From positions 1-51,620 of the forward strand of contig JAVCDC010000065.1 of the NCBI GenBank assembly GCA_030765135.1: a stretch of 51,620 nt of DNA, read 5' to 3'. This document shows positions 24,815 through 43,900 of this stretch, piece after piece. Below the pieces are notes generated by a model. That model searched no databases. It had not been told where the DNA came from and saw only the letters and a list, made by a program, of their open reading frames with translations. How positions within the stretch are numbered: the first letter of the stretch is position 1; each line of letters starts with the position of its first letter. A program made the position numbers and the translations under genes. This DNA is from Candidatus Tritonobacter lacicola. Lineage in GTDB: Bacteria > Auribacterota > Tritonobacteria > Tritonobacterales > Tritonobacteraceae.

Positions 24815-25583
24815 CTCCCTTACCGATCAGAGAAAAACGCTTACCGATTACTTACCGATTGCCGCCTCTATACACATACCGCACGCTTAGCCTTTTCCCA
24901 ATTCGCTCAGCAAGACCAAATTCCACCGACGGGTTTGACGGGTTTATGACGGGTTATCTCTTCTAACCTTGGATGACGGGTTTGTCGGGTTTATGACGGG
25001 TTTCATGTCCCCATTCCGGTGACAGGATGTGCATGTCATTGCTATTGCTTCGTCCACATTGTCGAGAGACTGGTATGCTCCGCTTGGTGCCCAGTGCCTG
25101 GTACTGATGGTATCACATGACTCATAAATGTCCTGTTTCTTCTTCTCAAAGGAGCATCAGATGTGCGTCAAAGATGTCCTGTTTGCGTACGACGGAAGAA
25201 AAGTCATAACTCACTTCTCCCCAAACGCTTTCAGATCAGAACCCGGCCCGGAATCGCCACCGTTGTCCTGTTTATGTTCTGTTTTCTACTGACAATTCGT
25301 TTCGCTAACTCCGGTTCTATTCCCCGGCCAGGTGATGGATTCCGGCGTTTTGGTGATAGAAAAGTGATAGATTAGACATGGGATTCCCCGAGTTTATAGC
25401 AGGTGCTTCGCCCCGCGCCTGTCTGTTCAAGAAGCCCCACAATGAATTCATTTAGTCTGTTTTAATCCCCCTCTTACCGATTAGCGAAAACCGTTTACCG
25501 ATTACTTACCGATTACCTCCTCTATAAATATACCGTACGCTTCTTCCTTTCCCGATTCTCTCAGCAAGACCAAATTCCACCAA
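24815..25583. repeat. About 115-bp direct repeat bounding a gene-free stretch
   Basis: About 24815-24928 and 25465-25583 are similar in the same orientation, both with three TTACCGAT steps followed by the last codons of an AlbA-type ATP-binding gene. Between them (24929-25464) I find no convincing gene; the left part has repeated TGACGGGTTTATGACGGG units near 24928-25005. Duplication of a gene end with loss of the rest, or recombination between two related genes, would explain it. Confidence 0.6.
24852..24927 (-). pseudogene. 3' remnant of a second AlbA-type ATP-binding gene
   Basis: The minus strand encodes VEFGLAERIGKRLSVRYV plus YRGGNR and stop, matching the last 24 residues of the gene at 25506-26708 (VEFGLAERIGKGRSVRYI plus YRGGNR) with three to four changes. 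Upstream homology ends abruptly and in-frame stops follow. It is the tail of a paralogue otherwise lost. Confidence 0.75.
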
Positions 25584-26708
25584 CGTGCTTAGATCTTTTG
25601 TCGCTGTGACTTTTGAAATACTGAAACGATCCTGACATTCCCGATTTGTTATCGACTCTCCGGTCGCAAGCCATTTGACAATCTCGCGTTGCCGCCCTGT
25701 GAGTCGCTCCTCGATGGATGCAGAGACATGCATATCCGAAGGCATTTTGATCCGGTCCACATTGTTATCCGGGCCTCTCAGTACCACCGTGAAATATCCG
25801 TCCCTAAACGAATATTCGGGGGCATCCAACCCATGGTCTAACATGGCTGACTGCATACGGCGAATACCTGTACCACGCTGTTCCATTAAATGAAGATGAC
25901 CGAGGTACTGCGCAAGCATTGGGTTTCGGGAACAAGGTTCGTAGTTCCCTTTGACAAGCTTACTGATGGTCAATGGACGCAAAAGTCTGCCCGGACTTAG
26001 AATCTCCACCCGATCAAAGAATAGCTTAACATAGATTGGCCGAGCTGCGTCTTCATAGTCACGATGAGCGATCGCATTAACAATTGCTTCCCGGATTACT
26101 TCCCGCGGATACTCGTCCAGTTTTACTCGATGAATACCCGCGACTCGAATGGGGTGACGGGTATTACTCATAACAAACTCGACAACCTGATCGACCATGC
26201 GGGGCGCGGGACAGGAGAAGGTATTTTGATCTTTGGGATTTGGATCGGGCTCCCGGCCATCATACGCATCAACCAGAATACGGCATTGAGGGAAGACTTC
26301 GGATGGATTTTTTCCCAGAAATAACAAACCGGAGGCCATAGCCTTGTAGACCGCCCCCTTTTCTCCTTTCCGGATAAGCCCCTTTTCTCGCAAAATATTT
26401 AGTAAGACGGATTTTGCCGGTTTTTCATCCCGCAGCAGGTTGAAGTTCTGTAAAACCGCCTTGGGAGCGCGAGAGCCCTTCAAGGTCAACCGGCCCTTCG
26501 CCTCGGCTGTCTCGACAAAATCTACCACCTGTGCCTTGTCAATGTCCCGAAACGTTGCCCCGTCGCAGACACTGTCATCAAAGGGCATGGTGTGGAGCAG
26601 ACCCCGCTTTTCAAGGGAATCGACAAGACTTGCATAGACCTCGCGGATTAATTCTGGCGTATCCGTAAAGCGACGCCGCGTAAGCTGGCGCTCTGCCCAA
26701 GCCCACAA
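25506..26708 (-). CDS. 5'-truncated ATP-binding transcriptional regulator (AlbA_2/AAA_4 type)
   Basis: A 400-codon frame. From about residue 38 it resembles the RecG-like/Schlafen-AlbA ATP-binding family: MPFDDSVCDGATFRDIDKA, then GLLFLGKNPSEVFPQCR, the conserved YPREVIREAIVNAIAHRDY (GHKL-type helix with N and HRDY), GRLLRPLTI, RNPMLAQYLGHLHLMEQRGTGIRRM, and a C-terminal winged helix (TGRQREIVKWLATGESITNRE). The DNA-binding AlbA domain with its E-F-K motif, normally the first about 100 residues, is missing; in its place is LWAWAERQLTRRRFTDTP, and the only usable start is a TTG at 26708. It looks like a gene that has lost its 5' end and been joined to foreign sequence. A paralogous 3' tail sits at 24852-24927. 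Confidence 0.7.
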   Translation of the reverse strand: MWAWAERQLTRRRFTDTPELIREVYASLVDSLEKRGLLHTMPFDDSVCDGATFRDIDKAQVVDFVETAEAKGRLTLKGSRAPKAVLQNFNLLRDEKPAKSVLLNILREKGLIRKGEKGAVYKAMASGLLFLGKNPSEVFPQCRILVDAYDGREPDPNPKDQNTFSCPAPRMVDQVVEFVMSNTRHPIRVAGIHRVKLDEYPREVIREAIVNAIAHRDYEDAARPIYVKLFFDRVEILSPGRLLRPLTISKLVKGNYEPCSRNPMLAQYLGHLHLMEQRGTGIRRMQSAMLDHGLDAPEYSFRDGYFTVVLRGPDNNVDRIKMPSDMHVSASIEERLTGRQREIVKWLATGESITNRECQDRFSISKVTATKDLSTLVEFGLAERIGKGRSVRYIYRGGNR

Positions 26709-27507: not shown

Positions 27508-27741
27508 GCTAAGGGAGGGAGGAATGACTAAGTAATGACAAATCCTGCACCTGTCCACCGTCTTGTCCGCCGAAGCACGAAGTGCGAAGGCGGAAGCTCA
27601 TAGAGCGAAGGCGGCAATTCTGCAACCCGTATCCTGTATCCCATATCCCGCATCATCCCAATTCCCTTCTTCCAAATCATTTCTCCTTTTCTCTTTAGCC
27701 TGATTTGATACACTATCTATCCAAGTACAGTAAGGTGATTA

Positions 27742-30700
27742 ATGACCAATGGACCGGTAAAAACATCAGGTATCTGGGACAACCACCGTCGGGGGTCGAT
27801 AGGCGACTTTCTCAAAGAGAAGATCCGGTCGGGATCCGATCTCTCTTTTGTCTCCGCCTATTTCACCATCTACGCCTACGACGCCCTGAAGGAGCAGTTC
27901 GACCGGATCAATCACCTCCGCTTCTTGTTTGGAGAGCCACAGTTCATCCAATCACTCGACCCCGATAAGACGGAGAAGAAGGCTTTTAGAATAGAGAACG
28001 ACGCTCTCACTCTCGACAATAAGCTGGAACAAAAACGTGTGGCCAGGGAATGCGCCGAGTGGCTGGATACCAAAGCTGAAATCAGGTCCATCATCAAGCC
28101 GGGCTTTCTCCACGGCAAGATGTACCATATGAACAATAATGGCGTCCAGGAAGCCATTATCGGGAGTTCTAACTTCACGGTACGCGGTCTGGGCCTGGGC
28201 GCTTCCGGAAATAACATCGAGCTCAACCTTGAGGTCAACGACAACCGGGATCGAAGGGACCTGAAGAACTGGTTTGATGAGGTCTGGAACGATGGCTCCC
28301 TGGTGGAAGATGTCAAAGCCGATGTACTCAGGTATCTCGCCCAGCTCTATCAGAATAATTCCCCCGAATTCATCTACTTCAAAACACTCTTCCATATCTT
28401 CGAAGACTACCTTTCGGAAGCGGAGCGCGGCGGACTGCTTAACGAAAAGACCGGTTTCTTCGAGACTGAAGTCTGGGAGATGCTATATGACTTTCAGAAA
28501 GACGGCGTAAAAGGAGCGATCAACAAAATCCTCACCCATAACGGTTGTGTCATTGCCGACAGCGTCGGACTCGGCAAGACCTTTGAGGCGCTGGCTGTCA
28601 TCAAGTACTTTGAATTATTGAATGGAAGGGTTCTTGTGCTCTGCCCGAAGAAACTGCGCGACAACTGGATTGTCTATCGCGAGAACGATGAACGCAATCC
28701 CCTAAAAAACGATCGTTTCGCCTACACGGTCCTCTCCCATACGGATCTCAGCCGCTATAGCGGAACATCCGGCGATGTAAACCTATCAACCCATAGTTGG
28801 GGAAACTATGATCTGATCGTGATCGATGAGTCGCACAACTTTCGCAATAATGCCGGCGGAAAGCAAAACGATGATGGAACCCGCCGTCGGAGCCGGTATG
28901 AGAGGTTGATGGAGGATATCATCCAGTCCGGGGTACAGACCAAAGTGCTCTTGCTCTCCGCTACACCGGTCAATACGAACCTCAAGGACTTGAGGAATCA
29001 GATATATCTCATCACCCAGGACGAAGACCGGGCCTTCTCTGAATCGCTCAAGATATTCAGCATATCCCAGACCATGAAGAACGCCCAGACCCACTTCACT
29101 AAATGGGCGGATCCCAAGAAGAATCGTGACCGGAAAGTAGGACAGCTCCTGGAAGCTCTGGATTCCGGGTTCTTCACGCTGCTTGACGAACTCACGATCG
29201 CCCGATCTCGAAGGCATATTGAGAACTACTATGATATTGACAAGATCGGCCGATTCCCCGAGAGGCTGAAACCTATCTCCCTTGCGCCCGATATCGACAC
29301 GAAAGGATTCTTCCCGACCTATGATGAACTAAATACGGAGATCTTGAAGTACAAGCTCTCTCTTTATAATCCCTCTGAGTATGTCCTTGATGCACACATG
29401 GCCGAATATGTAAAGCTGGGCGGACAGATGCAGCTATTTAACGATCAGAAGACACGCGAACATTACCTGATCGGCATGATGCGCGTGAACTTCCTCAAGC
29501 GTCTTGAGAGTTCCATTGAATCATTCGAGATCACGATGGAGAGAACCATTAGGAAGATCGATGACCTGATCGATAAGATCAAGCACTTTGACCGGAATCG
29601 CGAAAAGTATATGAGCCCGGAATTTTATTTACTTGAAATGGCTGAAGATGAGGATCTAGAGGACCTGGAGGAGCGGCTTCGGGTTGGGAAGAAACTATCT
29701 TTTAAACTAGAACATCTCGACATCAAGCGCTGGCTGAAAGACCTCCGCTCCGATAGGAAACAATTGGTTGATCTTCACGAAGCCGCCGCGGCTGTTACAG
29801 TGGAACGAGACCAGAAATTGCAGGAACTGAAGAAACTTATTCAAGACAAGTTAAATTCACCCCTAAATCCGGACAACAGTAAGGTCCTAATCTTCACGGC
29901 TTTTTCCGATACGGCAAACTATCTGTATGAAGCTCTTAAGGAGTGGGCCCTGGATGAACTCAACCTCCATATCGCTCTCGTAACCGGCAGCGGTAAGAAC
30001 AAGACCACATACAAGGTTGCGGAATTCAGAGGGCAGACCGACTTCAACGCGATTCTCACCAACTTTTCTCCCCGTTCCAAGATGCGGGAAAAGATGAGCA
30101 GTATGCCGCAAGAGGAAGAGATCGATATCCTGATCGCATCGGACTGTATCTCTGAAGGCCAGAATCTCCAGGACTGCGACTATCTGATCAACTATGATAT
30201 CCACTGGAACCCGGTGCGCATAATTCAGCGTTTTGGCCGGATCGATCGGATCGGATCCATCAATACCAGCATCCAACTGGTAAATTTCTGGCCGACACCG
30301 GATCTTAACAAGTATATCAACTTGAAAGACCGGGTAGAGGCCCGCATGGCCCTGGTCGACCTGGCGGCCACCGGCGAGGATGACCTGCTCAATACCGAAC
30401 AGATTAAGGATCTTCTGAAAGACGAACTCACCTACCGGGAGAAGCAACTGCTCCGCCTGAAAGACGAGGTAATTGATCTGGAAGAGATGGACGAAAGTAT
30501 TTCACTCAGCGAATTTACGCTGGATGATTTCCGGATCGAATTGATGAACTACCTGGAGACCAACAAAGAACTGCTTAAGAATGCGCCTTTCGGACTTTAT
30601 GCCCTGGTCCCGCCGTTGAAAGAACTGCGGACCGCAGATCTCTTCAACTCTTCCATGCAGGAGATCGTCAAGCCGGGAGTTATTTTTTGCCTTCGTCACA

Positions 30701-31095
30701 ACTCTCCCCGGCAGGATGAGAAGCAGAAGAGCGTGAATCCGCTCAATCCCTATTACCTTCTCTATCTCCGTGATGACGGAGAAGTGCGGTTCACTTTTGT
30801 CCATGCCAAGCAGATCCTGACTATGTATCAGGCGCTCTGCCGGGGACAGACCGAACCATTCAAAACGCTCTGTGAACTCTTTGACCGCGAGACGAACAAT
30901 GGCGCGGAGATGTCTGCCTACAGCACCCTTCTCAGGAAAGCCGTGGAGTCCGTCGCCCGCACCTTCCAAAGACGCACCGCCGCCGGTCTCCAGTCCGGTC
31001 GTGATTTTGTCATTCCGGACCGGGACCAACAGGCCACCGGCCGATCGGATTTCGAGTTAATCACCTGGCTGATAATCAAGGACGGAAGAGCGTAG
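27742..31095 (+). CDS. PLD-SNF2 helicase of a defence operon
   Basis: A 1117-residue fusion. Residues about 15-190 form a phospholipase-D-like nuclease domain: FLHGKMYHM near 122 and AIIGSSNFTVRGLG near 137 (H-x-K and GSSNF motifs; the usual Asp of HKD is not evident). A SNF2/superfamily 2 motor follows: Walker A ADSVGLGKTFEAL near 271, VIDESHNF near 360, LLLSATPVNT near 385, and in the second RecA lobe LIASDCISEGQNLQDCDYLI and QRFGRIDRIGS near 829. Such PLD-helicases are found beside adenine methyltransferases in DISARM-like, Hma-like and type III-like systems. It is the first gene of a plus-strand set with a DUF4143 ATPase and a large methyltransferase, so a restriction or DNA-remodelling role is inferred. 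AAGGTG precedes the ATG by 5 nt. Confidence 0.9.
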   Translation: MTNGPVKTSGIWDNHRRGSIGDFLKEKIRSGSDLSFVSAYFTIYAYDALKEQFDRINHLRFLFGEPQFIQSLDPDKTEKKAFRIENDALTLDNKLEQKRVARECAEWLDTKAEIRSIIKPGFLHGKMYHMNNNGVQEAIIGSSNFTVRGLGLGASGNNIELNLEVNDNRDRRDLKNWFDEVWNDGSLVEDVKADVLRYLAQLYQNNSPEFIYFKTLFHIFEDYLSEAERGGLLNEKTGFFETEVWEMLYDFQKDGVKGAINKILTHNGCVIADSVGLGKTFEALAVIKYFELLNGRVLVLCPKKLRDNWIVYRENDERNPLKNDRFAYTVLSHTDLSRYSGTSGDVNLSTHSWGNYDLIVIDESHNFRNNAGGKQNDDGTRRRSRYERLMEDIIQSGVQTKVLLLSATPVNTNLKDLRNQIYLITQDEDRAFSESLKIFSISQTMKNAQTHFTKWADPKKNRDRKVGQLLEALDSGFFTLLDELTIARSRRHIENYYDIDKIGRFPERLKPISLAPDIDTKGFFPTYDELNTEILKYKLSLYNPSEYVLDAHMAEYVKLGGQMQLFNDQKTREHYLIGMMRVNFLKRLESSIESFEITMERTIRKIDDLIDKIKHFDRNREKYMSPEFYLLEMAEDEDLEDLEERLRVGKKLSFKLEHLDIKRWLKDLRSDRKQLVDLHEAAAAVTVERDQKLQELKKLIQDKLNSPLNPDNSKVLIFTAFSDTANYLYEALKEWALDELNLHIALVTGSGKNKTTYKVAEFRGQTDFNAILTNFSPRSKMREKMSSMPQEEEIDILIASDCISEGQNLQDCDYLINYDIHWNPVRIIQRFGRIDRIGSINTSIQLVNFWPTPDLNKYINLKDRVEARMALVDLAATGEDDLLNTEQIKDLLKDELTYREKQLLRLKDEVIDLEEMDESISLSEFTLDDFRIELMNYLETNKELLKNAPFGLYALVPPLKELRTADLFNSSMQEIVKPGVIFCLRHNSPRQDEKQKSVNPLNPYYLLYLRDDGEVRFTFVHAKQILTMYQALCRGQTEPFKTLCELFDRETNNGAEMSAYSTLLRKAVESVARTFQRRTAAGLQSGRDFVIPDRDQQATGRSDFELITWLIIKDGRA

Positions 31096-31151: not shown

Positions 31152-32312
31152 ATGATTCCACGCGCTATATCAAGAACAGTCAGAGAACTGGCAAAAGGTT
31201 ACCCCGCTGTGGCCATTACAGGGCCCCGGCAGTCGGGAAAGACCACGCTGGCTCGGATGCTGTTTCCCAATAAACCGTATGTTTCCCTGGAAGATCCGGA
31301 TATCCGTGGACTGGCCCAGGAAGACCCCCGGGCATTTTTGGAAAAATATGATTCCGGCGCAATTCTGGACGAGGTACAGCGTTGCCCGGACATTCTCTCA
31401 TATCTGCAGGTTATTCTTGATAAGCGTTCCCGAATGGGACGCTTTATTCTTACTGGATCTCAGCAATTCGGCCTTCATTCCGGCATAACTCAATCTTTAG
31501 CCGGACGCGTTGCCATGGTTCAGCTATTGCCGTTTACTTATGACGAAGTTTACAAGAAACCACCCTCACTGGATACTATGTTGTACACCGGCCTGTATCC
31601 CCCGATTTATGATCGAAAGTTGAATCCCTCCACCTGGCAGGCCAATTATATACAGACTTATATTGAGCGGGATGTGCGACAGATGATCAACGTCCGCGAC
31701 CTGAGTACGTTTCAGCGTTTTCTACGGTTATGCGCGGGGCGAACCGGGCAGCTCTTGAATCTCTCCCGATTAGCCTCGGATGTGGGCATTACCCACAATA
31801 CGGCAAAATCCTGGATATCTATCCTGGAAGCAAGCTATCTGGTTTTTCTCCTGCGCCCCCATCATCGTAATTTCAACAAACGTATTATTAAATCGCCTAA
31901 ACTTTATTTCTATGACACAGGCTTGGCGGCCTGGTTACTGGGAATTCGGGAAGCCGGACAGCTTGAAACCCACCCTCTGCGCGGCAGCTTATTTGAATGC
32001 TGGGTAATCAGCGAATTATTCAAGGGGCAATTTAATCAAGGGAAGCCAGCCGATCTTTTTTTCTGGCGGGATCGGGAGGGAAACGAAGTCGATCTTCTGA
32101 TGGAAAGGGGGAATTCCCTTATTCCGATAGAAATCAAGTCCGGGCAAACCATCAACAGAGATTTTTTCCGGGGGCTTGACTATTGGCGGAGTTACCAGGA
32201 GAACGATGAAATACGATCGTGGCTGATATATGGAGGGAAGGAAGAACATAGCCGTCGGAATACAACAATCATCAGTTGGACCGGATTGAGGAAATTAATG
32301 AAAGAATGCTAA
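31152..32312 (+). CDS. AAA ATPase with DUF4143
   Basis: A 386-residue ATPase: Walker A GPRQSGKTT near 24-32, Walker B AILDEVQRCPD near 70-80, sensor FILTGSQQFGL near 97-107, an extended IERDVRQMI stretch and the C-terminal DUF4143 region (KLYFYDTGLAAWLLGI; LFECWVISELFK; FFWRDREGNEVDLLME; PIEIKSG), which has a PD-(D/E)xK-like nuclease appearance (EVDLL...IEIKSG). These proteins are common near toxin-antitoxin and defence genes; their activity is poorly known. It lies 56 nt after the helicase and its TAA overlaps the methyltransferase ATG (TAATG), so it is part of the same operon. No clear Shine-Dalgarno is seen. It could be an independent passenger, but the coupling argues for membership. Confidence 0.88.
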   Translation: MIPRAISRTVRELAKGYPAVAITGPRQSGKTTLARMLFPNKPYVSLEDPDIRGLAQEDPRAFLEKYDSGAILDEVQRCPDILSYLQVILDKRSRMGRFILTGSQQFGLHSGITQSLAGRVAMVQLLPFTYDEVYKKPPSLDTMLYTGLYPPIYDRKLNPSTWQANYIQTYIERDVRQMINVRDLSTFQRFLRLCAGRTGQLLNLSRLASDVGITHNTAKSWISILEASYLVFLLRPHHRNFNKRIIKSPKLYFYDTGLAAWLLGIREAGQLETHPLRGSLFECWVISELFKGQFNQGKPADLFFWRDREGNEVDLLMERGNSLIPIEIKSGQTINRDFFRGLDYWRSYQENDEIRSWLIYGGKEEHSRRNTTIISWTGLRKLMKEC

Positions 32313-35300
32313 TGAATATTCAACCGCTGAAAGCTCAAATCAAAGAGGCTCTTCAGACCTTCCGGTCCGGCAGCGCCAGAGAGAACGCGCTCAAACTTTT
32401 GAATGTTCTCGGCTACCGCAGCGATCGGACACTCGATCTTGACGGCAGCCCGGAGGCCTTCCTGCAACAGTTTGACCGCGACTCCGATCGTCCCTTTCGC
32501 AAGGATAAAGCTCTCTTCGATCGCTGGAAGTCCATTGATTTCCTCTTCCAGCTTACGGATACGGAAGTTCGCAATGCCGGGATGCAGGGTGACCTCCCTT
32601 TTGACTCTTCAACCGGATATGACGGCAAGACCTACTCTTCCTATCTCTTCTTCGTGCTGGAACTGAAAAAGGACCACTACACCCGAACCCACCTCTCCCA
32701 GATCACCCGTGAAATTAACCGGCTTTTCACGATGCCGGTAATGGTCTTCTTCAAACAGGAGGGGACACTCACTCTGGCGGTAATCAACCGCCGGATCAGC
32801 AAACGAGATCCGGATAAAGACGTCCTGAAAAAGGTCACCCTGATAAAAGATATTCGCATCGAAGACCCGCACCGCGCGCATATTGAAATCCTCTATGATC
32901 TCTCCTTTCCCGCCATCTGCGCCAAGGCTCAGCCGTCCAACTTCATCGAACTCCATGCGGCCTGGCAAAAAGCGTTGGATGCCAGTGAACTCAACAAACT
33001 CTTCTACAAGGAATTGGCGCTCTGGTACTACTGGGCGGCAACGAGGGTAAGATTTCCCGTCCCACCTTATGTAGAGGATGAAGAGGCGTATCAGAAAGAG
33101 AGCCTTATCCGTTTGGTTACCCGCCTCATCTTCATCTGGTTCATGCGGGAGAAGGAACTTGTCCCGGCCGATATTCTCCAATCAGGGAAATTGACCTCGA
33201 TTCTGAAAGATTTTGATCCTCAGAGCGAAAATGACAGCTCATTCTACAAAGCCATCCTCCAGAATCTCTTCTTCTCCACACTGGATACCACCATGAAGGA
33301 GCGAGACTTTCGCCGGCAGAGGTCCTTCCAGGGAAAAAACAAGGATTACATGGAGCATAAGGTATTTCGCCATGAGAAGCTGTTTCGGGAAGGAGTACAA
33401 CTGAAAGACCTTTTCGGAGAAATACCCTTTCTTAACGGTGGGCTTTTCGAATGTCTTGACCACTTCGATGAGGAGGAGAAAGTCATTCGAGTTGATGGAT
33501 TCTCCGATATTGCCAAGCACCAACCTGTTGTTCCGAACCACGTCTTCTTCCTGCCGGAGACCGATGCGAAAGAACTTGGTGTGGATCTGAACCAGGTCTT
33601 CGATACCAGGAACAAGCGTTATAAGGTCAGAGGGTTGATCGACCTGCTTGAAAACTACAAATTCACAGTGGTTGAAAACACTCCCATTGAAGAAGAGATT
33701 GCTCTTGATCCCGAACTCCTCGGTCTGGCCTTTGAGAACCTCCTCGCCAGTTATAATCCCGAAACCGGCACGACCGCCCGGAAACAGACCGGCTCATTCT
33801 ATACTCCCAGAGTGGTTGTCGATTTCATGGTCGATGAGTCCTTGATCGCATATCTGAAAGCTAAACTGCTGGGACCGGATACTTCAAGTTCGAAAGCGGG
33901 GGGCGGGAAAGGAAAAAGCAGCAAGATCGAAAAACGATTGCGGAATTTACTGAGTTACCGTGAGACGCTTGTAGAGTTGACGGATAAAGAGACCGACCAA
34001 CTTATCGAGGCCATCGATCACTGTAAGATCGTCGATCCGGCCTGCGGCTCCGGCGCGTTCCCGATGGGGATCCTGCACAAGCTTGTCCATATTCTCCAGA
34101 GTATCGATCCCGGCAACGAACGGTGGAAGACCAAACTGCTGGACCGAACACCCGTAGAGATCCAGGAAGATGTGACGCGGATGCTGGAGGGAACCAGTCT
34201 CGACTATGTGCGCAAGCTGGGCTTGATCCAGAACTGCATCTACGGCGTGGACATTCAGCCCATCGCCATCGAGATCGCCAAGCTCCGATTTTTCATATCA
34301 TTGCTCGTTGATTACCGGAAAGACCCCAAGAAACCAAACCTGGGTATTCAGCCGTTGCCTAACCTCGACTACAAACTGATGCAGGGCGACAGCTTGATTG
34401 AGGATTTTTATGGCATCTCTCTCTCCCCGGAGACCGTTGAAAAGGAAGAGCAGAAACTCCTCATTGACGATCGCCTTGAAGTGAAGGGGCTGATCGATAC
34501 CTTGTGGAGAAAACAGTCTGAATATCTTAACGCATGGCGCCTGAAGGATAAAGAACGCCTCAAGAAAGAGGTCGAGGGAACAATAATCAAGATTTTTCAT
34601 CATGAAATCGAGATAAAAAAGAAACCCTATTTTGAAGCGCTGAAGGTGCTGAAAGATCAATCAGACCAGGTTAAGAATCTGGAACAAAAGCAAAAGTACT
34701 ATGCCGCGGGCAAGGCGAAAATCGACAAGAAATTTGATTTCGATTTTGTTGCCGTTGAGCGGGAACTCCGGGAATATACGCGTGGATATCGGCGGCGTCC
34801 GTTCTTTCCCTGGCATCTATACTTTGCCGAGGTATTCCAGGACAACGGGGGGTTTGATATTGCCCTTGGAAATCCGCCCTATGTACGTCAGGAAAAGATT
34901 CGAACTCTCAAACCAGCCCTTCAGAAACAGTATGAGTGTTTCACGGGCACGGCCGATCTTTACACCTATTTTTATGAGCGATCCATTACTCTTCTCTGTG
35001 ATGGTGGAATACTTACTTTCATCAGTTCAAACAAATTCTTCCGTTCCGGGTACGGCCAGAAGTTGCGCGCTTATCTTGGTAAGAACGCCTCTCTTCAGCA
35101 GGTGATAGATTTCGGCGACGCCCCGGTCTTCACCGCCATCGCTTACCCAACCATTATCGTGCTCGGCAAAAATACGCCTCAGATAAATAAATTTTTCGCC
35201 ATGACCTGGAAACCGGGCCCACCGATTAATGACTTCGTGTCGATCTACGAGAAACAACGCTTTGCCATGGACCAGGAGAGCCTCACACCCGCCGGGTGGC

Positions 35301-36880
35301 GGCTGGAATCTCCGGAAGTGCTCCAACTGCTTGAAAAACTTCGTAATGCCGGAACTCCTCTGGGTGAATACGTTAATGGAAGGTTCTATCGTGGAATCTT
35401 GACCGGCTTAAACGAAGCCTTTGTCGTGGACCGTGCCACCCGCGACCGCCTGATTGCAGAAGACCCCAAATCGGAAGAAATCCTGAAGCCTTTTCTCCGG
35501 GGGCGGGATGTAAAACGCTGGAGAGTGGAACCGAAGGATCTGTGGTTAATTTTTACACGCCGCGGAATTGATATCAAAAGATATCCGGCCATCAAAAAGC
35601 ATCTGGAGAAATACCGCAAAAAATTGAAACCCAGACCTAACAATTGGCCGTCTGACAAGCAATGGTCGGGACGCAAACCGGGCTCATATAAGTGGTATGA
35701 GATACAGGATAATATTGCTTATTATAAGGAGTTTGAAGAACAGCAAATCGTTTGGGGCAATCTCGCAACTCACCCAAAATTTTCATTTGCCAATGCAGGG
35801 TATTACCTTAGTGCGCCGGCGGTTTTAATGGTTACAGATAACCCCTATGTTCTTGGCATTCTTAATTCGAAACTTACACACTATGTTGTTTCTCAATCTG
35901 CGGCCACAAGGCAAGGTGGATATGTTGAATTCAAGCCCATGTATATTTCGAATCTGAGTATCCCGGATCCTTCGCAAGATATTAAAGCTAAGATTTTTAA
36001 TTTGGTTATTAATGCCGAAAAGGCTACTGGCAATCAACTTGTTGAAATTGAAAATAGAATCGATAAAGAAGTGTATAGGTTATTTAATCTAACAGAAGAA
36101 GAAATCACCCTCATCGAATCGTCTATTGGACCCTCTAGAACGAAAGCGGAAATAAAATCGGATCTTCGTTCGATATTGCTGCCGGCTCTGAAGGAGATGT
36201 CACCATATTTCAACCTGGAGACAGTATCTGTCCGGTTAAAGGGAGTTGGAATAGAGGCTCCATCTACAACTGTAACAACCTATCTCTCTGAATTCATATC
36301 AGAGGGCTTATTATATGACGCCGGGAGGGGATGGTATTCCCGCATCGCGAAACCATTCGCTCTCGATACTGCTCCTGTAAAAAAGATCATCACCAAAATA
36401 AAAAAAGCCTTCCCTCTCCTTGATTTCTCCTGCTGGTCAACAGAACAGATCAATCCGTATATGCATCATCTTTTAGGCAAGTCCGTAACATTCGTTTATA
36501 CGGACCGTGATCTTATGCCGGCTGTTTATGAGGAACTTCAGGGTTGGCAAGGATATAAAGTCTATCTGGATCCCTCATCGGATGAAGCGAAGAAAAATTT
36601 TCGGGTTGAGGAGAAGACGATCGTCATCCGTCCGGAGAGCAAAGACTCCCCGGGAGGGGAAGGCCATACGGCATCCATTGAGAAATTGCTCACGGATTTG
36701 TCTATTGAGGTCGAGAAACTGCCGCTTATGAGCCTCGGTGAATTCCAGGATATGGCCTGGCGCGCCGTAACCTCTGCCCGAATCTCCATGGGAACTTTAC
36801 TCCGCTATGCTCGTAGGAGGTACCGGGAACCATCAAATATGTTTGGCGAAAACTGGTGCAGGCAGAGGGTCAAACCCTAA
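32312..36880 (+). CDS. Type IIG/PglX-like adenine methyltransferase fused to an AbiEi-like domain
   Basis: A 1522-residue protein. The N-terminal about 500 residues include an R-type region (YLFFVLELKKDHYTRTHL, a possible nuclease strand). Then SFYTPRVVVDFM, methyltransferase motif I DPACGSGAFPMGIL near 575 and motif IV LGNPPYV near 852 mark an N6-adenine methyltransferase of the Eco57I/PglX class, followed by a target-recognition-like region to about 1265. The last about 240 residues are different: a winged-helix-like start (APSTTVTTYLSEFISEGLL, GRGWYSR), CWSTEQINPYMHHLLG, and SIEKLLTDLSIEVEKLPLM with LRYARRR. That is the pattern of DUF6577/AbiEi-type antitoxin proteins as I know them. The TAATG junction makes the ATG at 32312 more likely than the TTG at 32276. 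It probably marks, and may cut, DNA for the helicase system. Confidence 0.88.
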   Translation: MNIQPLKAQIKEALQTFRSGSARENALKLLNVLGYRSDRTLDLDGSPEAFLQQFDRDSDRPFRKDKALFDRWKSIDFLFQLTDTEVRNAGMQGDLPFDSSTGYDGKTYSSYLFFVLELKKDHYTRTHLSQITREINRLFTMPVMVFFKQEGTLTLAVINRRISKRDPDKDVLKKVTLIKDIRIEDPHRAHIEILYDLSFPAICAKAQPSNFIELHAAWQKALDASELNKLFYKELALWYYWAATRVRFPVPPYVEDEEAYQKESLIRLVTRLIFIWFMREKELVPADILQSGKLTSILKDFDPQSENDSSFYKAILQNLFFSTLDTTMKERDFRRQRSFQGKNKDYMEHKVFRHEKLFREGVQLKDLFGEIPFLNGGLFECLDHFDEEEKVIRVDGFSDIAKHQPVVPNHVFFLPETDAKELGVDLNQVFDTRNKRYKVRGLIDLLENYKFTVVENTPIEEEIALDPELLGLAFENLLASYNPETGTTARKQTGSFYTPRVVVDFMVDESLIAYLKAKLLGPDTSSSKAGGGKGKSSKIEKRLRNLLSYRETLVELTDKETDQLIEAIDHCKIVDPACGSGAFPMGILHKLVHILQSIDPGNERWKTKLLDRTPVEIQEDVTRMLEGTSLDYVRKLGLIQNCIYGVDIQPIAIEIAKLRFFISLLVDYRKDPKKPNLGIQPLPNLDYKLMQGDSLIEDFYGISLSPETVEKEEQKLLIDDRLEVKGLIDTLWRKQSEYLNAWRLKDKERLKKEVEGTIIKIFHHEIEIKKKPYFEALKVLKDQSDQVKNLEQKQKYYAAGKAKIDKKFDFDFVAVERELREYTRGYRRRPFFPWHLYFAEVFQDNGGFDIALGNPPYVRQEKIRTLKPALQKQYECFTGTADLYTYFYERSITLLCDGGILTFISSNKFFRSGYGQKLRAYLGKNASLQQVIDFGDAPVFTAIAYPTIIVLGKNTPQINKFFAMTWKPGPPINDFVSIYEKQRFAMDQESLTPAGWRLESPEVLQLLEKLRNAGTPLGEYVNGRFYRGILTGLNEAFVVDRATRDRLIAEDPKSEEILKPFLRGRDVKRWRVEPKDLWLIFTRRGIDIKRYPAIKKHLEKYRKKLKPRPNNWPSDKQWSGRKPGSYKWYEIQDNIAYYKEFEEQQIVWGNLATHPKFSFANAGYYLSAPAVLMVTDNPYVLGILNSKLTHYVVSQSAATRQGGYVEFKPMYISNLSIPDPSQDIKAKIFNLVINAEKATGNQLVEIENRIDKEVYRLFNLTEEEITLIESSIGPSRTKAEIKSDLRSILLPALKEMSPYFNLETVSVRLKGVGIEAPSTTVTTYLSEFISEGLLYDAGRGWYSRIAKPFALDTAPVKKIITKIKKAFPLLDFSCWSTEQINPYMHHLLGKSVTFVYTDRDLMPAVYEELQGWQGYKVYLDPSSDEAKKNFRVEEKTIVIRPESKDSPGGEGHTASIEKLLTDLSIEVEKLPLMSLGEFQDMAWRAVTSARISMGTLLRYARRRYREPSNMFGENWCRQRVKP

Positions 36881-36944
36881 ATAATAAGTTGAAGGGGACA
36901 CCCCGCAGTTGCTGTTCGAAATCTTAGAGGGAGACTCTCAGCAA

Positions 36945-37076
36945 TTACTTTGAACCTGAGGACCGCTCCCCGGCCCTCTTCCCTCTTAATTTCAGGAGAA
37001 TCTTGAGGTCTTCTCTATCCCTCCCTCGCCCGGCTGCCTTCTTCATTGTTATCAGGTCGTCCAGGGAGGCGAAATA
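36945..37076 (-). pseudogene. C-terminal remnant of a nucleotidyltransferase (AbiEii-like)
   Basis: In frame directly after the stop of the small gene at 37077-37262, the minus strand encodes FASLDDLITMKKAAGRGRDR, EDLKILLKLRGKRA and a stop. The L-x-D-L-I-x-M-K-x-x-A-G-R-x-x-D-x-x-D pattern is the usual C-terminus of toxin-type nucleotidyltransferases. The catalytic GS-x-D part is absent, so the 5' and middle of the gene have been deleted. The rest of the gap 36881-36944 has nothing notable. Confidence 0.7.
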
Positions 37077-37262
37077 TTATGAGCGTTTAATGATTTCAAA
37101 AGGCTTTCTGTGTCCATTTCGAATCAGCATCTCCGCGATTTCTCTCGACCTCTGAAACATCATCCGGAAGCGTTCTTCCACACTCAACGAAAGCTGGTAA
37201 TCCAGCTCAAAGTCAAGCTCGAGCTCATCATCATCCGTGTCGCTCTTGAAAATCGGTGTCAT
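37077..37262 (-). CDS. Small protein typically paired with a nucleotidyltransferase
   Basis: 61 residues from the ATG at 37262, chosen because AGGAA lies 8 nt upstream; a longer frame to 37325 is possible. It has an acidic stretch (SDTDDDELELDFELD) followed by LSVEERFRMMFQRSREIAEM and NGHRKPFEIIKRS. Similar small proteins occur just upstream of nucleotidyltransferase-fold toxin genes; here only the tail of that partner is left. Probably an antitoxin-like or accessory component that has outlived its partner, an inference. Confidence 0.6.
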   Translation of the reverse strand: MTPIFKSDTDDDELELDFELDYQLSLSVEERFRMMFQRSREIAEMLIRNGHRKPFEIIKRS

Positions 37263-37348
37263 GTACTCTTTCCTACCAGATCGACAATCCGTGTATGAGG
37301 CTTTTTTACATTGTACCATAATCAAGAGCGCCCTGGCGCACCAATACT

Positions 37349-37427: not shown

Positions 37428-40400
37428 TTATTCCGTACTGATCGCCGTCATACCAACCGCGTCATTCCCTATAGGAATGACCCACAAGTCGCGAGCAAGG
37501 GCAGACGGGTTCCTGGCATAGCAATCCCAGTATATCCAGTCGCCGGGAACAAGGGCGTTGTAGTAGTACAGGTTCACGTCCCCCGCACCCTCCTTCTTAA
37601 GGATCGCCAGGTCCTCCTTGCCGTCGTTGTCGGCGTCTATGGCGGTCAGCCCTATCGCGTCGTTGCCCGCCGGCATCAGCCACATGTCCCGCGCGAGAGC
37701 AGAGGGATTCCGTGCAAAACAGTCCCAGTATATCCAGTCGCCCTCCACCAGGTTGTTGTACACGTAAAGATTCACATCCCCAGCGCCCTCCTTCTTCAGG
37801 ATGGCAAGGCCCCTCCCTGCGCCAACGCCTATGTCCGTCAGGCCGATGGCATCGTTTCCGGCAGGCATCAGCCACATGTCCCTGGCCATGGCGGACGGGT
37901 TCCGACTGAAGCAGTCCCAGTAAAGCCAGTCGCCGGGAACAAGGGCATTGTAGTAGTACAGGTTCACGTCCCCCGCTCCCTCCTTCTTCAGGATAGCAAG
38001 ATCATCCAGCCCGTCGGCGTTCATGTCATCCACTCTAGCGATGCCTATCGCGTCGTTGCCCGTCGGCATTATCCACAGGTCGCGCGCCACGGAGGACGGG
38101 TTCCGCGCATCGCAATCCCAGTAGCTCCAGTCTCCACCTACGATGCTGTTGTATAGGTAGAGGTTCACGTCGCCGGCTCCTTCCTTCTTCATAACGTAGA
38201 GCCTGTCCGGGCTGCCACCCGTTGCTGTCATACCTATCGCGTCGTTACCTGTCGGTATGATCCACATGTCCCTGGCCATGGCGGACGGGTTCCGGCTTAA
38301 GCAGTCCCAGTACAACCAGTCGCCCGGCACCAGGCCGTTGTAATAGTAGAGGTTCACGTCGCCAGCGCCTTCCTTCTTCATGATCGCCAGCTTGTTCTCC
38401 AGATGGGTCGGCCGCCCTGAAAAGACATACAGCATGTTGTTATCTGAACCAACATAGATCCTACCGTCTGAGCCTATTGCTGGGGAAGATTCAACATCTC
38501 CTCCAGTCCCGTATGTCCAGGCGAGCGCGCCGTCGGAGCCGAGTGCGTACACGTTGTTGTCATAAGACCCAATATAAAGCCGCCCGTCGGAGCCGATGGC
38601 GGGGGAGGAGGACACCCGGTCCCCGGTCCCGTAGCTCCAGGCGATCGCGCCATCGGAGCCGAGTGCGTACACGTTGTTGTCACATGATCCCACGCAGAGC
38701 CTCCCGCCGGAGCCCACGGCGGGGGAGGAGGTCACCAAGTACCCGGTCCCGTAGCTCCACGTGAGCGCGCCATCGGAGCCGAGTGCGTACACGTTGTTAT
38801 CCCAGGACCCCACGTAGATTTTCTCCTCGGAGCCCACGGCGGGGGAGGAGGTTACCCAGTCCCCGGTCCCGTAGCTCCAGGCGATCGCGCCGTCGGAGTT
38901 GAGTGCGTACACGTTGTTATCCCAGGAGCCCACGTAGACCCTCCCGCTGGCGCCTATGGCGGGGGAGGAGGTTACCCAGCCCCCGGTCCCGTAGTTCCAC
39001 GCGCGCGTGCCGTCGGAGTTGAGTGCGTACACGTTGTCGTTCCAGGCCCCCGCATAGACCCTCCCGTCCGGTCCTATCGCGGGGGAGGATTGCACGCGGT
39101 ATCCAATGCTGCACGTCCACGCGAGCGTGCCATCGGAGTTGAGGGCGCACACATTGCCGTCATTATCCCCCACATAAATTCGCCCATCAGGCCCCACCGC
39201 AGCGGAAGAGTCCACCAAGGCGCCGGTCCCGTAATCCCACGCGAGCGTGCCATCGGAGTTGAGGGCGCATATAGCGCGGGGGGAGTAAACGTCGTTATCC
39301 GGCACGTAGATCATGCCCCCGTGGCCTATTGCTGGGGAAGAGGACACAGCGTCCCCGGTGATGTAGCTCCACGCAAGTGCCGCCGTCGAGGGTCCGGGGT
39401 ACGAGCTCAACCCCGTGCGCATCGGGTCGTGGCGGAACATTGGCCAGGGAGGCGGCGTTGGCGTGATGGTGGGCGTCCGTGTAATCGTAGGCGTCAAGGT
39501 GATTGTGGGGGTCCGGGTAACCGTAGGTGTGCTTGTAGGCGTGGCCGTCAGGAGCCCTGTTGGCGTCCGGGTCGGCGTTGACGTCCGCGTGGGTGTTGCC
39601 GTAGGCGTCCCTGTGGGGGTCCCCGTCGCCGTAGGCGGCGACTCCTGGAACGCGAAGAGCCTGTCGTACGACCCAACGAAGACTCCCCCCTCACCGCCTA
39701 TGGCGGGAGACGACCACACCCGCTCCCCTACCAGGTAGCTCCACTGGAGGCTGCCCGACGAATCGAGGGCGTATATATTCCCGTCGCCACTGTAGGAGCC
39801 CGCGTACACCCTCCCCGCGGCGTCCAGAGCTGGGGACGAGGGAACGCTGCCGGCGGTCAAGTAGCTCCACGCAAAAGAGCCCGCCGAGGTGAGCGCGTAG
39901 ATATTGTTATCGCCGGAGCCCACGTACACATTGCCGTTGGTGCCCACAGCCGGGGAGGAGTCCACCCAATCACCGGCGGCGTAGGTCCACACAAGAACCC
40001 CCGCCTGCGTGAGGGCGTAGAGGTTGTTGTCCTGTGACCCGACATAGAGACGTCCGCCGGGGCCCAGGGCGGGCGAGGAGCGCACGTTCCCCCCCGTCGC
40101 GTAGCTCCACAGGAGCGAGCCGGATGACGTGAGGGAATAGACGTTGCCGTCCGGGTCACCGATAAAGACGCCTCCTCCGGGCCCAAGGGCGGGGGCAGAG
40201 TACTTATCATACCAGAAGGTAACATAGCTCCACGAGAGGGCGCCGACCGAGGTGAGGGCGTAGAGAGCGCCGCCTGAGGAGCCCGCGTAGACCTCGCCCC
40301 CGTAGCCCACGGTGAGGGCGGTCCGCGAGATGCCCCCTCCCGTCGCGTAGCTCCAGGAGAGGGTCCCGTCCGATTCCAACGAGTAGATATTTTTGTCCCA

Positions 40401-40808
40401 GGAGCCGGCGAGGACCCTCCCATCAGGGCCGACAACCGGCGAAGCGTACACGCCCGCCCCCGTCGCGTAGCTCCAGAAAAGCGAGCCGTACGAGTTCAGG
40501 GCGTACACGTTGTTGTCGCCCGACGAGGCCCCCGCGTAGACCCGTCCCTCGTTATCCACCACGGGCGAGGACTCGACCCCTGCACCCGTTACGTAGCTCC
40601 ACAGGAAGACGCCCAGGGTGGGCCCCTCGTACAGGCTCCTTCCAGTGTGCGATAGGTCGTTTCTGAACATCGGCCATGGGGCATAGGGAGTGGGTGTAGC
40701 TGTGGGTTGGGCCCGGGCAGCCGCGGCAAAGAGCACTACGAGAACCACCGCTGTAGCGACAATGCTTGTACGTCCCATGAGAAATCCACGTCGCCTTCCC
40801 TCGCGCAT
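37428..40808 (-). CDS. Secreted double eight-bladed propeller protein with five-repeat module
   Basis: A 1126-residue exported protein. An Arg-rich start (MREGRRRGFLMGRTS) and a long hydrophobic core ending AARAQ form the signal peptide; GGAGG lies 9 nt before the ATG at 40808. After PTATPTPYA, residues about 40-386 are an eight-bladed PQQ/BamB-like propeller introduced by WPMFRNDLSHTGRS, with blades of 40 residues of the type SSPAVGxxGxVYVGSxDNNxYAL. Residues about 390-453 are a Thr/Pro linker, residues about 455-803 a second eight-bladed propeller introduced by WPMFRHDPMRTGLS, and residues 807-1126 the five-repeat module. Such propellers usually bind ligands or proteins; I see no enzyme domain. 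The N- and C-terminal blocks match those of the giant protein upstream, so the two probably arose by duplication. Confidence 0.88.
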   Translation of the reverse strand: MREGRRRGFLMGRTSIVATAVVLVVLFAAAARAQPTATPTPYAPWPMFRNDLSHTGRSLYEGPTLGVFLWSYVTGAGVESSPVVDNEGRVYAGASSGDNNVYALNSYGSLFWSYATGAGVYASPVVGPDGRVLAGSWDKNIYSLESDGTLSWSYATGGGISRTALTVGYGGEVYAGSSGGALYALTSVGALSWSYVTFWYDKYSAPALGPGGGVFIGDPDGNVYSLTSSGSLLWSYATGGNVRSSPALGPGGRLYVGSQDNNLYALTQAGVLVWTYAAGDWVDSSPAVGTNGNVYVGSGDNNIYALTSAGSFAWSYLTAGSVPSSPALDAAGRVYAGSYSGDGNIYALDSSGSLQWSYLVGERVWSSPAIGGEGGVFVGSYDRLFAFQESPPTATGTPTGTPTATPTRTSTPTRTPTGLLTATPTSTPTVTRTPTITLTPTITRTPTITPTPPPWPMFRHDPMRTGLSSYPGPSTAALAWSYITGDAVSSSPAIGHGGMIYVPDNDVYSPRAICALNSDGTLAWDYGTGALVDSSAAVGPDGRIYVGDNDGNVCALNSDGTLAWTCSIGYRVQSSPAIGPDGRVYAGAWNDNVYALNSDGTRAWNYGTGGWVTSSPAIGASGRVYVGSWDNNVYALNSDGAIAWSYGTGDWVTSSPAVGSEEKIYVGSWDNNVYALGSDGALTWSYGTGYLVTSSPAVGSGGRLCVGSCDNNVYALGSDGAIAWSYGTGDRVSSSPAIGSDGRLYIGSYDNNVYALGSDGALAWTYGTGGDVESSPAIGSDGRIYVGSDNNMLYVFSGRPTHLENKLAIMKKEGAGDVNLYYYNGLVPGDWLYWDCLSRNPSAMARDMWIIPTGNDAIGMTATGGSPDRLYVMKKEGAGDVNLYLYNSIVGGDWSYWDCDARNPSSVARDLWIMPTGNDAIGIARVDDMNADGLDDLAILKKEGAGDVNLYYYNALVPGDWLYWDCFSRNPSAMARDMWLMPAGNDAIGLTDIGVGAGRGLAILKKEGAGDVNLYVYNNLVEGDWIYWDCFARNPSALARDMWLMPAGNDAIGLTAIDADNDGKEDLAILKKEGAGDVNLYYYNALVPGDWIYWDCYARNPSALARDLWVIPIGNDAVGMTAISTE
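37431..38390 (-). repeat. Five-repeat C-terminal module, copy B (320 aa)
   Basis: Five repeats of 63, 67, 64, 66 and 60 residues, starting LAIMKKEGAGDVNLYYYN. Repeat 1 ends GGSPDR, repeat 2 DDMNADGLDD, repeat 3 DIGVGAGRG, repeat 4 DADNDGKED, and repeat 5 the C-terminus. These inter-repeat signatures are in the same order as in copies A and C. Confidence 0.93.
38400..40690 (-). repeat. Two PQQ-like propeller arrays of about 120 bp blades
   Basis: Sixteen blades of about 40 codons. Between roughly 38500 and 39260 the blade units are very similar even at the DNA level (GTCCCGTAGCTCCAGGCGA and GAGTGCGTACACGTTGTTGT recur each about 120 nt), and the same words occur in the third propeller of the next gene at 42040-42640. 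Confidence 0.9.
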
Positions 40809-40998
40809 AAATCGCACCCTCCACCCGCGGTCCGCTTTTACCATGAAATCTCGATTCCCCGGGCCGTCACGTCACGTAGCAGTCACCCCGGCGCAAAGCA
40901 CCACGGCCCGACAGAAAACATGGCCCCGCGCTCTTGGCCGCACCCGTTTAGGGGATTTCGCCCCGCTGCCGCTAGGTATCTGCCCTTACAGGGCCCCC

Positions 40999-43900
40999 TT
41001 ATCTTTTCCACCATACCCTGATTGCGGTTATCCCCACCGCGTCGTTCCCCGTGGGGATTATCCAGAGGTCCTGTGCAAGCGTCGACGGGTTGCGCGCCAG
41101 AGCATCCCAGTAGCCCCAGTCGCCGGTCAACAGCGCGTTGTAGTAGTACAGGTTCACGTCCCCTGCGCCTTCCTTCTTCAAGACCGAGAGGTCATCCACC
41201 CCGTCCCCGTCCATATCGATGGCCGTGATACCTATGGCATCGTTCCCTGACGGTATTATCCATAGATCTTTTGCCAGAGGGGACGGGTTCCTCGATACGG
41301 CGTCCCAGTACGACCAGTCTCCTTCTACAAGGTTCCTGTAGACGTATAGGTTCACGTCCCCCTCCCCTTCTTTCTTCAGGATCGCGAGGCCCCTCTCTCC
41401 GTCTCCCTTCCCTATGTCCGTCAGGCCCACCGCGTCGTTCCCCGTTGGGATCAACCACAGGTCGCGAGCCAGGGGTGTCGGGTTCCTCGATACGGCGTCC
41501 CAGTAGCCCCAGTCGCCGGTCAACAGCGCGTTGTAGTAGTACAGGTTCACGTCCCCTCTCCCCTCCTTCTTCAGGATGGCGAGGTCCTTCAGCCCGTCGG
41601 CGTTCATGTCCTCCACGCTGGCGATGCCTATCGCGTCGTTACCCGCCGGCATTATCCAGAGGTCGCGAGCCACGGCGGACGGGTTCCTCGCCAGGGCGTC
41701 CCAGTACGACCAGTCGCTGTCCTCAAGGCCTTCGTAGAGGTACAGGTTCACGTCGCCCGCCCCCTCCTTCTTCATCACGTAGAGCCTGTCCGGGCTGCCA
41801 CCCGGCACAGACGCCATCCCCACGGCGTCGTTCCCCGTCGGGATAATCCACAGGTCACGCGCCATAGGCGAGGGGTTTCTCGCCAGCGCGTTCCAGTAGG
41901 TCCGGTCACCCGCGACGAGGTCGTTGTAGAAGTAGAGGTTGACGTCGCCTCTCCCATCCTTTTTCAGGATGGCGAGCTTCCACGCTACCCCGTCGAGACA
42001 GTACAGCATGTGGTCCTCGGAACCGACGTAGATCCTCCCGTCAGAGCCTATGGCGGGAGAAGAGGACACGCTGCCTCCGGTCCCGTAGCTCCACGCGAGC
42101 GCGCCGTCGGAGTCGAGTGCGTACACGTTGTTGTCCCAAGACCCCACGTAGACCCTCCCCCCGGCGCCCACGGCGGGGGAGGAGTCGTACACAATGTCTC
42201 CCGTGCCGTACGTCCAGGAGAGCGCGCCGTCGGAGTTGAGTGCGTACACGTTGTTGTCCCCGGACCCGATGTAGAGCCTCCCGCCGGTGCCCACGGCGGG
42301 GGAAGAGGAGACCCAGGTTCCGGTCTCGTACGTCCAGGCGAGCGCGCCGTCGGCGGCGATGGCGCACACGTTGTTGTCCCACGACCCCACATAGATCCTC
42401 CCGTCGGAACCTATGGCGGGGGAAGAGGTCACACAGGAGCCGGTCCCGTAGCTCCAGGCGAGCGCGCCGTCGGAGTTGAGTGCGTACACGTTGTTGTCCC
42501 AGGAACCGACGTAGACCCTCTTATCAGACCCGATAGCGGGGGAGGAGGAGACAGAGACTCCGGTCATGTACGTCCACGCGAGCGTGCCGTCGGAGTCCAG
42601 AGCGTACACACCGGAGTCCCATGACCCTACATAGAGCCTCCCGTCGGAGCCCACGGCGGGGGAAGAGTCCACCCAGAATCCGGTAACGTAGCTCCACGCG
42701 AGCGTGCCGGCGGAGTCTATGGCGTACACGTTGTCGTCCCAGGACCCCATGTAGACCATCCCGTCGGCGCCTATGGCGGCGGAAGACCATACGAACGATC
42801 CAGAACCGCTTATGTAACTCCACGCCAGCGCGCCGTCGGAGTTCACGGCGCACATCGTGCTGGGGGAATAGGCGTCATTATCCGGCACGTAGACTCTCCC
42901 CCCGGTCCCTATTGCGGGAGAGGAGGAGACGCCGCCGCCCGTGACGTAGCTCCACGCCATCGCCACCGTCGAGGGGCCCCGGTACTCGCTCCGCCCCATA
43001 CGCATCTGGTTATTATGGAACATCGGCCAGGGGGCGTACGGTGTGGCCGTCTGTAAAGGCGTCGGAGTCTCTGTCTGCGTGACCGTGGCAGTCGCCGAAG
43101 GTGTTGGCGTCTGAGGCATCGTCGGTATTTCCGTGGGTGTGCGTGTCGGCGGCGGAGTCGTCACCGTTGGCGTGTGAGTGGGCGTATTGGTCGGCGTCTC
43201 CGTGGGCGTATCGGTTACAGTCGGCGTCGGAGTGGGCCCTGTCGGAGTGTGAGTGGGCGTGGCGGTGATAGAGGGCGTACTGGTAATTACCGGCGTGGAG
43301 ACCCCAATCGCGTACAGCATGTCGTCATTCGACCCCACGTAGAGCCTTCCGTCGGAGCCTATGGCGGGAGAGGAGGACACACTGCCTCCGGTCATATAGG
43401 TCCATAAGAGAGAGCCCGTGGAGTTGAGGGCGTAACCACCGTTGTCTTGAGAGCCCACGTACACATGCCCGCTGGAGTCTATGGCGGGGGAAGACTGAGT
43501 TACATAATTCCCTGTTACATAGCTCCATGAAAGTGAACCCGTGGAGTTGAGCGTGTAAATAGTACTGTCCCAGGACCCGACATGGACTCTCCCTACAGTA
43601 CCTATGGCGGGGGATGAATATATATTGCCTCCGGTCATATAGGTCCACGTGAGGGAGCCGTTGGAGTTGAAAGCGTAAACACCATGGTCTTGAGAGCCCA
43701 CGTATATTTGCCCCTCAGAGCTTATGGCGGGGGAAGAGGATACATAGCCCCCTGTCATGTAGGTCCACGAGAGTGAGCCCGTGGAGTTGAGGGCGTACAC
43801 GTTGTAGTCAAGCGACCCGACATAGACTTTGCCCCCGGGGCCCAGGGCTGGAGAGGAATCTATGCTGTCTCCGGTCGTGTAGAACCACCTGATAGTGCCG

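Follow-up and report, generated by a model that had tools for sequence, protein, structure and literature searches.

A restriction-modification-type adenine methyltransferase fused to an AbiEi-type antitoxin recurs in front of AbiEii toxin genes

AbiE is a type IV toxin-antitoxin (TA) system, in which AbiEi neutralises AbiEii without any binding between the two and represses its own operon via a winged helix and a C-terminal domain; AbiE also stabilises plasmids (PMC3985639). Toxins that guard a restriction enzyme have their classic precedent in PrrC, which is kept silent by EcoprrI until Stp of phage T4 neutralises the restriction enzyme (PMC2610378). The gene described here is a true end-to-end fusion of a restriction-modification (R-M)-type adenine methyltransferase and a complete AbiEi-type antitoxin. 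It lies on contig JAVCDC010000065.1 of Candidatus Tritonobacter lacicola (GCA_030765135.1), and the window, meaning the whole stretch of 51,620 nucleotides (nt) that was analysed, is numbered along its forward strand. The fusion is part of a recurrent cassette composed of an HKD/SNF2 helicase, a methyltransferase::AbiEi protein and an AbiEii nucleotidyltransferase toxin. The fusion gene holds the following features (protein positions in amino acids, aa):

32306 to 36880, plus strand: methyltransferase::AbiEi (DUF6577) fusion gene, a single open frame with Pfam and PADLOC matches along its length
34034 to 34054, plus strand: S-adenosylmethionine (AdoMet)-binding motif DPACGSG, read in the translation
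34232 to 35131, plus strand: Eco57I-type N6-adenine methylase domain, aa 653-952 (PF07669, 1e-39)
34871 to 34882, plus strand: catalytic NPPY, read in the translation
35486 to 35956, plus strand: TaqI_C-like target-recognition domain, aa 1071-1227 (PF12950, 6e-12)
36128 to 36880, plus strand: full-length AbiEi-type antitoxin tail, an N-terminal winged helix followed by a C-terminal antitoxin domain
36269 to 36829, plus strand: Pfam match to DUF6577, aa 1332-1518 (PF20217, 4e-34, 118 bits)

The frame ends with the stop codon at 36880 and has start candidates at TTG 32276 and at ATG 32306 or 32312, which gives 1534 codons when counted from the TTG. Its front part is matched by PADLOC to type IIG methyltransferases (REase_MTase_IIG, 1e-103), and both DPACGSG and NPPY are intact. 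With the AdoMet motif, NPPY and a recognition domain all present, the sequence of this part identifies it as an N6-adenine DNA methyltransferase of type IIG-like kind; no nuclease domain above the Pfam cut-off was found in the N-terminus. An earlier note on this DNA had described a full type IIG/PglX-like methyltransferase. The type IIG-like half of that description agrees with the best matches, while PglX is matched only distantly, at best with 77 bits against a cut-off of 400 bits for BREX-2 (bacteriophage exclusion) and with 56 against 500 bits for BREX-1, and an assignment to BREX PglX was rejected on these scores.

The remainder of the protein had been read earlier as a DUF6577/AbiEi module, and this was borne out. 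The Pfam match, whose 118 bits compare with a cut-off of 27.8, covers profile positions 1-191 of 204, and PADLOC returns AbiEi (3e-34) for the tail alone. The tail shares 62% identity with the stand-alone DUF6577 protein L013. Along 233 residues it shares 45% identity with another stand-alone protein of this family, 258 aa long and encoded in a genome of the same phylum by a gene that directly precedes an AbiEii nucleotidyltransferase gene. On a DUF6577 profile built here it scores 296 bits, where intact homologues score about 165-325, and judged by its sequence it is undamaged and free of decay. An AlphaFold2 model of the tail, made with an alignment of 41 sequences, has a mean predicted local distance difference test (pLDDT) score of 95.3. 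The sole Foldseek match to this model in the PDB with E <0.001 is 6y8q, the AbiEi of Streptococcus agalactiae (E 1.5e-5, probability 1.00), and the second fold match is Rv2827c (1zel). Given a low global TM-score (0.30/0.37), the likeness between tail and AbiEi is one of domains and not of overall arrangement. PDB sequence matches of the tail profile to gp41 were discarded as helix/coiled-coil noise. By its sequence and predicted fold, the tail is an AbiEi-type antitoxin.

The two parts meet without a spacer, as similarity to the unfused methyltransferase L144 extends up to aa 1292 and similarity to the stand-alone L013 begins at aa 1285. No in-frame ATG is present at the expected start of a separate antitoxin gene; the first lies at 36197, within the conserved KEMSPYFN segment, and the sole in-frame start candidate before it in the tail region is one TTG.

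A scan with the tail covered 84,980 genomes and yielded 59 related DUF6577 loci. Methyltransferase and DUF6577 share one open frame in 27 distinct loci, the window counted, and the fusion that the earlier note had read from a single sequence is accordingly present in 26 others. An AbiEii-type nucleotidyltransferase open reading frame (ORF) stands behind the fusion in every one of these 26, and the window is the single exception (26/27). These ORFs start between -38 and +113 nt from the fusion stop codon, and 22 of the 26 are complete and full-size, at about 355-400 aa. The fused methyltransferase proteins measure 1,340-1,550 aa. The downstream protein is recognised as AbiEii by Pfam (PF08843, 2e-20) and by PADLOC (9e-87). 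Its nucleotidyltransferase motifs GG..R.S.D.D, D, K and K...D are invariant across 34 sequences of relatives and correspond to AbiEii motifs I-III (PMC3985639), the motif IV region having been compared only roughly. A model of the relatives' toxin (pLDDT 93.6) has MenT4/TglT Rv1045 as its best structural match, and a PDB sequence search with the toxin profile gave no match.

The fused loci are mostly labelled Verrucomicrobiota, with others in metagenome-assembled genomes (MAGs) of Bacteroidetes, Proteobacteria and Nitrospirae, labels in which binning errors are possible. Verrucomicrobiota, the phylum of locus L035, was sampled independently with 388 genomes, which contained 18 DUF6577 copies; 8 lay in frames of 1366-1573 aa. 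A draw from Bacteroidota showed DUF6577 to be common (44/396 genomes) yet stand-alone apart from the seed genome, with the fusion type in 1/45 genomes, namely the seed itself, and among 399 genomes drawn around L022 the seed alone held DUF6577. A scan of viral contigs with the tail found no relative, a plasmid search found only a stand-alone pair, 24% identical, and a phage search gave two distant matches. A phage record from human faeces (L012, MT835501.1:1-6572) encodes a distant DUF6577 protein with a nucleotidyltransferase behind it.

Fused proteins are scattered among unfused ones in the methyltransferase tree, and a single clade of fused methyltransferases was rejected by the approximately unbiased (AU) test (p-AU 7.5e-12). 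The nearest relative of the window methyltransferase is the unfused L144 (51-53% identical), while that of the window tail is the stand-alone L013. Fused and stand-alone copies likewise interleave in the tail tree, where well supported branches force at least 11 changes. Since the fused methyltransferases do not form one clade and the antitoxins interleave, the join has been made or broken many times. No close relatives fit for a selection test on the window gene were found.

Other architectures repeat the pattern. In L126 (6885-8987) and L067 (6597-8690), DUF6577 is fused to the type I specificity subunit HsdS (Methylase_S) and followed by AbiEii, and beside these fusions lies an N6 methylase that contains an HSDR_N domain. 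In L129:1490-6136 it is fused to a DUF7149/DUF7814 IIG-like enzyme, again with AbiEii behind, and in L162:1186-5758 a DUF7149/DUF7814 IIG-like methyltransferase overlaps DUF6577 in another frame, followed by AbiEii. The antitoxin is thus joined to a modification or specificity subunit in at least three architectures: the helicase-coupled methyltransferase, the DUF7149/DUF7814 IIG-like enzyme of L129 and HsdS. Stand-alone DUF6577-AbiEii pairs occur 8 nt downstream of an N6_N4 methylase (L053:5959-10062) and 32 nt downstream of HsdM (L042:6253-9821, where the toxin frame is broken), and some adjoin unrelated genes. What stays constant across the architectures is the linkage of the antitoxin, a modification or specificity subunit and the toxin. 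As side observations, SIR2-like (SIR2_2) genes lie directly upstream of stand-alone DUF6577-AbiEii pairs in L039:6664-7881 and L070:4718-6085, and L025:1-4734 holds a fused DUF6577 copy, AbiEii, a Bro-N gene and then a stand-alone DUF6577 with a short AbiEii piece.

Two genes precede the fusion in the window:

27742 to 31095, plus strand: HKD/PLD and SNF2 helicase (PLDc_2 7e-9, SNF2 4e-8, Helicase_C 7e-15; PADLOC HKD+Snf2 5e-132)
31152 to 32312, plus strand: AAA_14/DUF4143 ATPase between helicase and methyltransferase (PF13635 6e-54, PF13173 9e-28)

The helicase gene is usually upstream of the fusion, as it is in the window, in those relatives whose contig extends far enough. Its PLD motif HxK...GSSN is kept in most relatives and reads HGK...GSSN in the window. 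The helicase is likely the restriction effector of the same operon, with the HKD domain as its nuclease. No homologue of the ATPase was found at the corresponding place in relatives. Surrounding genes on the minus strand include, adjoining the operon, an HATPase_c_4 plus helix-turn-helix protein with a RecG-C-terminus-like sequence (25506-26708) and two repeat proteins of very large size and beta-propeller (PQQ-like) type (37428-40844 and 40999-48648), of which the first has TPT-rich linkers and the other a lamin tail domain.

Set beside AbiE, the cassette is alike in the tail's combination of a winged helix with a C-terminal domain, in the fold matches to 6y8q and Rv2827c, and in the downstream AbiEii of relatives with its catalytic motifs; it is unlike AbiE in that the antitoxin forms the end of a methyltransferase, where AbiE has a free-standing protein of some 250 aa, and in that the window is without a toxin. 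As no AbiEii lies downstream, the window locus was not filed as a complete AbiE system. Type IIG-like and helicase-coupled methyltransferases (PADLOC REase_MTase_IIG; HKD+Snf2 C3a139) share the Eco57I and TaqI_C domains and an HKD/SNF2 helicase in the operon, whereas the window differs from them in its C-terminal antitoxin domain, in having no recognised N-terminal nuclease domain, and in the AAA_14/DUF4143 gene placed in between. MenAT/TglT-TakA resembles the cassette through the match of the relatives' toxin model to Rv1045 and differs from it in the antitoxin, here a methyltransferase-fused DUF6577. BREX PglX, Hma and DISARM (defence island system associated with restriction-modification) also combine an adenine methyltransferase with an SNF2-type helicase, at the level of distant matches, but a fused AbiEi is absent from their descriptions (AbiE is not mentioned in PMC12839542 and PMC8565338). 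Hma was rejected since the HmaA model (7e-28) covers part of the helicase only and the ATPase is AAA_14/DUF4143, not DUF499 (HmaC), and DISARM was rejected since DrmD scores 158 bits against a cut-off of 610 bits.

We favour, with moderate confidence, an R-M system that has the antitoxin to its own toxin built into the modification or specificity subunit, a guard that would resemble PrrC/EcoprrI. The antitoxin to the toxin encoded directly behind, probably the operon repressor as well, would sit on the subunit by which self DNA is read and marked. With the antitoxin placed on that subunit, silence of the toxin would depend on it, lasting only as long as the subunit is produced and intact. Antitoxin activity would then fall when the operon is lost or when a phage blocks, degrades or turns off the R-M machinery, and the nucleotidyltransferase would stop growth. 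We infer here that the AbiEii protein is toxic, that the fused tail neutralises it, that the winged helix represses, and that anti-restriction is the trigger. The likeness to PrrC/EcoprrI would lie in a translation-blocking toxin that is silenced by R-M proteins and freed once those are compromised (PMC2610378). The two differ in that PrrC is an anticodon nuclease silenced by association, while here a nucleotidyltransferase would be silenced by a covalently fused antitoxin and its release is our proposal. Membership in PrrC itself was rejected, as the toxin of relatives is AbiEii (PF08843) and not a PrrC anticodon nuclease, which leaves a likeness of proposed working only.

Several observations weigh against this reading. 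Because the AbiE partners do not form a complex, release would require lost antitoxin activity or repression and could not come from breakage of such a complex. Unfused relatives do without the toxin: no toxin gene was found beside the unfused methyltransferases of the family that were examined, and six such loci taken with wider flanks showed neither toxin nor DUF6577. Most loci are MAG contigs. Finally, the window itself has no cognate AbiEii toxin, not even a fragment, in a six-frame profile search run without filters, and no recognisable one occurs elsewhere in the 94%-complete MAG. The relevant positions are as follows:

36881 to 37076, plus strand: site of the AbiEii toxin gene in relatives, empty in the window
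36945 to 37325, minus strand: internally deleted gene pair, made up of an 82-aa ORF (37077-37325) and a DUF6036-type nucleotidyltransferase remnant (36945-37076)

The earlier note had linked the fusion to a toxin partner, a principle that holds for the 26 other fused loci but not for the window, and had pointed to the nearby nucleotidyltransferase remnant as a candidate. The remnant exists and is the C-terminal end of a nucleotidyltransferase of which ~14 residues from the start and ~40 from the end are left. It is on the other strand and belongs with the 82-aa ORF to a separate DUF6036-type pair, and was rejected as partner of the tail; the intact counterpart in a genome of the same class (G001, L171:1095-1683) consists of a small ORF, 70% identical, followed by a 146-aa DUF6036-type nucleotidyltransferase. 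The earlier reading was therefore partly supported, being right on the domain and the principle and wrong on the partner. Four PF08843 genes are present elsewhere in the genome, three without a match to the cognate toxin profile and one with a short, partial and weak match (13.7 bits); a toxin in trans was rejected on these scores, with the reserve that the MAG is 94% complete. The window copy is a toxin-less descendant of the cassette. With the toxin gene gone, its tail is limited to the DNA-binding or regulatory part, to protection against the same toxin when it comes in, or to being a recent leftover.

Two other functional explanations were weighed. The tail might act mainly as a winged-helix repressor, similar to a C protein or BrxR, that tunes the R-M operon and ties expression to the amount of enzyme, with the toxin as a passenger. 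Autorepression by AbiEi is known (PMC3985639), and the undamaged tail of the toxin-less window would fit a role other than neutralisation. Yet a mere regulator would need no AbiEii directly behind it in all 26 other fused loci, nor conserved catalytic motifs in that protein, and no clear operator was found upstream of 27742, where an imperfect 13-nt inverted repeat (27566-27594) and a 10-nt palindrome overlapping the helicase start were seen; we regard this explanation as unlikely. Slightly less credence is given to a plain addiction module within R-M operons, in which the TA pair would stabilise the island, the fusion would be a neutral result of tight packing and the window a decaying remnant. 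Plasmid stabilisation by AbiE (PMC3985639), stand-alone pairs beside unrelated genes and very small gene gaps all speak for it, whereas a join that is specific to the modification or specificity subunit, repeated and seen in at least three architectures, and a window tail free of decay speak against it.

That separate genes were merged by a sequencing or assembly error is very improbable. The window comes from one MAG only, and L162 does have both genes in different frames, but many assemblies, with 26 other loci in all, show the join at that same position, and the window offers no in-frame ATG where the antitoxin would be expected to start. The recurrence of the fusion in these loci is the reason for which a frame artefact was rejected.

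In the literature searched, with preprints and most subscription papers outside its scope, no description of a methyltransferase-AbiEi or HsdS-AbiEi fusion and no paper on the DUF6577 family were found, nor is any R-M/TA hybrid described there in which the antitoxin is fused covalently. The cassette departs from the PrrC precedent by having its antitoxin linked covalently to the enzyme defining self DNA, across several R-M types, in a join that has arisen or been undone many times. It stands at about an even chance that these loci represent a widespread, repeatedly evolved class of guarded R-M systems with the AbiEii antitoxin inside the DNA-reading subunit (helicase-coupled methyltransferase, IIG-like methyltransferase or HsdS), in which attacking the modification machinery would in itself free the toxin. 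The question of whether TA toxins guard R-M systems becomes directly testable with one cassette, which also offers a handle on DUF6577. Ultimately, the recurrent fusion with a toxin gene behind it suggests that cells tie a self-destruct switch to the machinery that marks their DNA against viruses.

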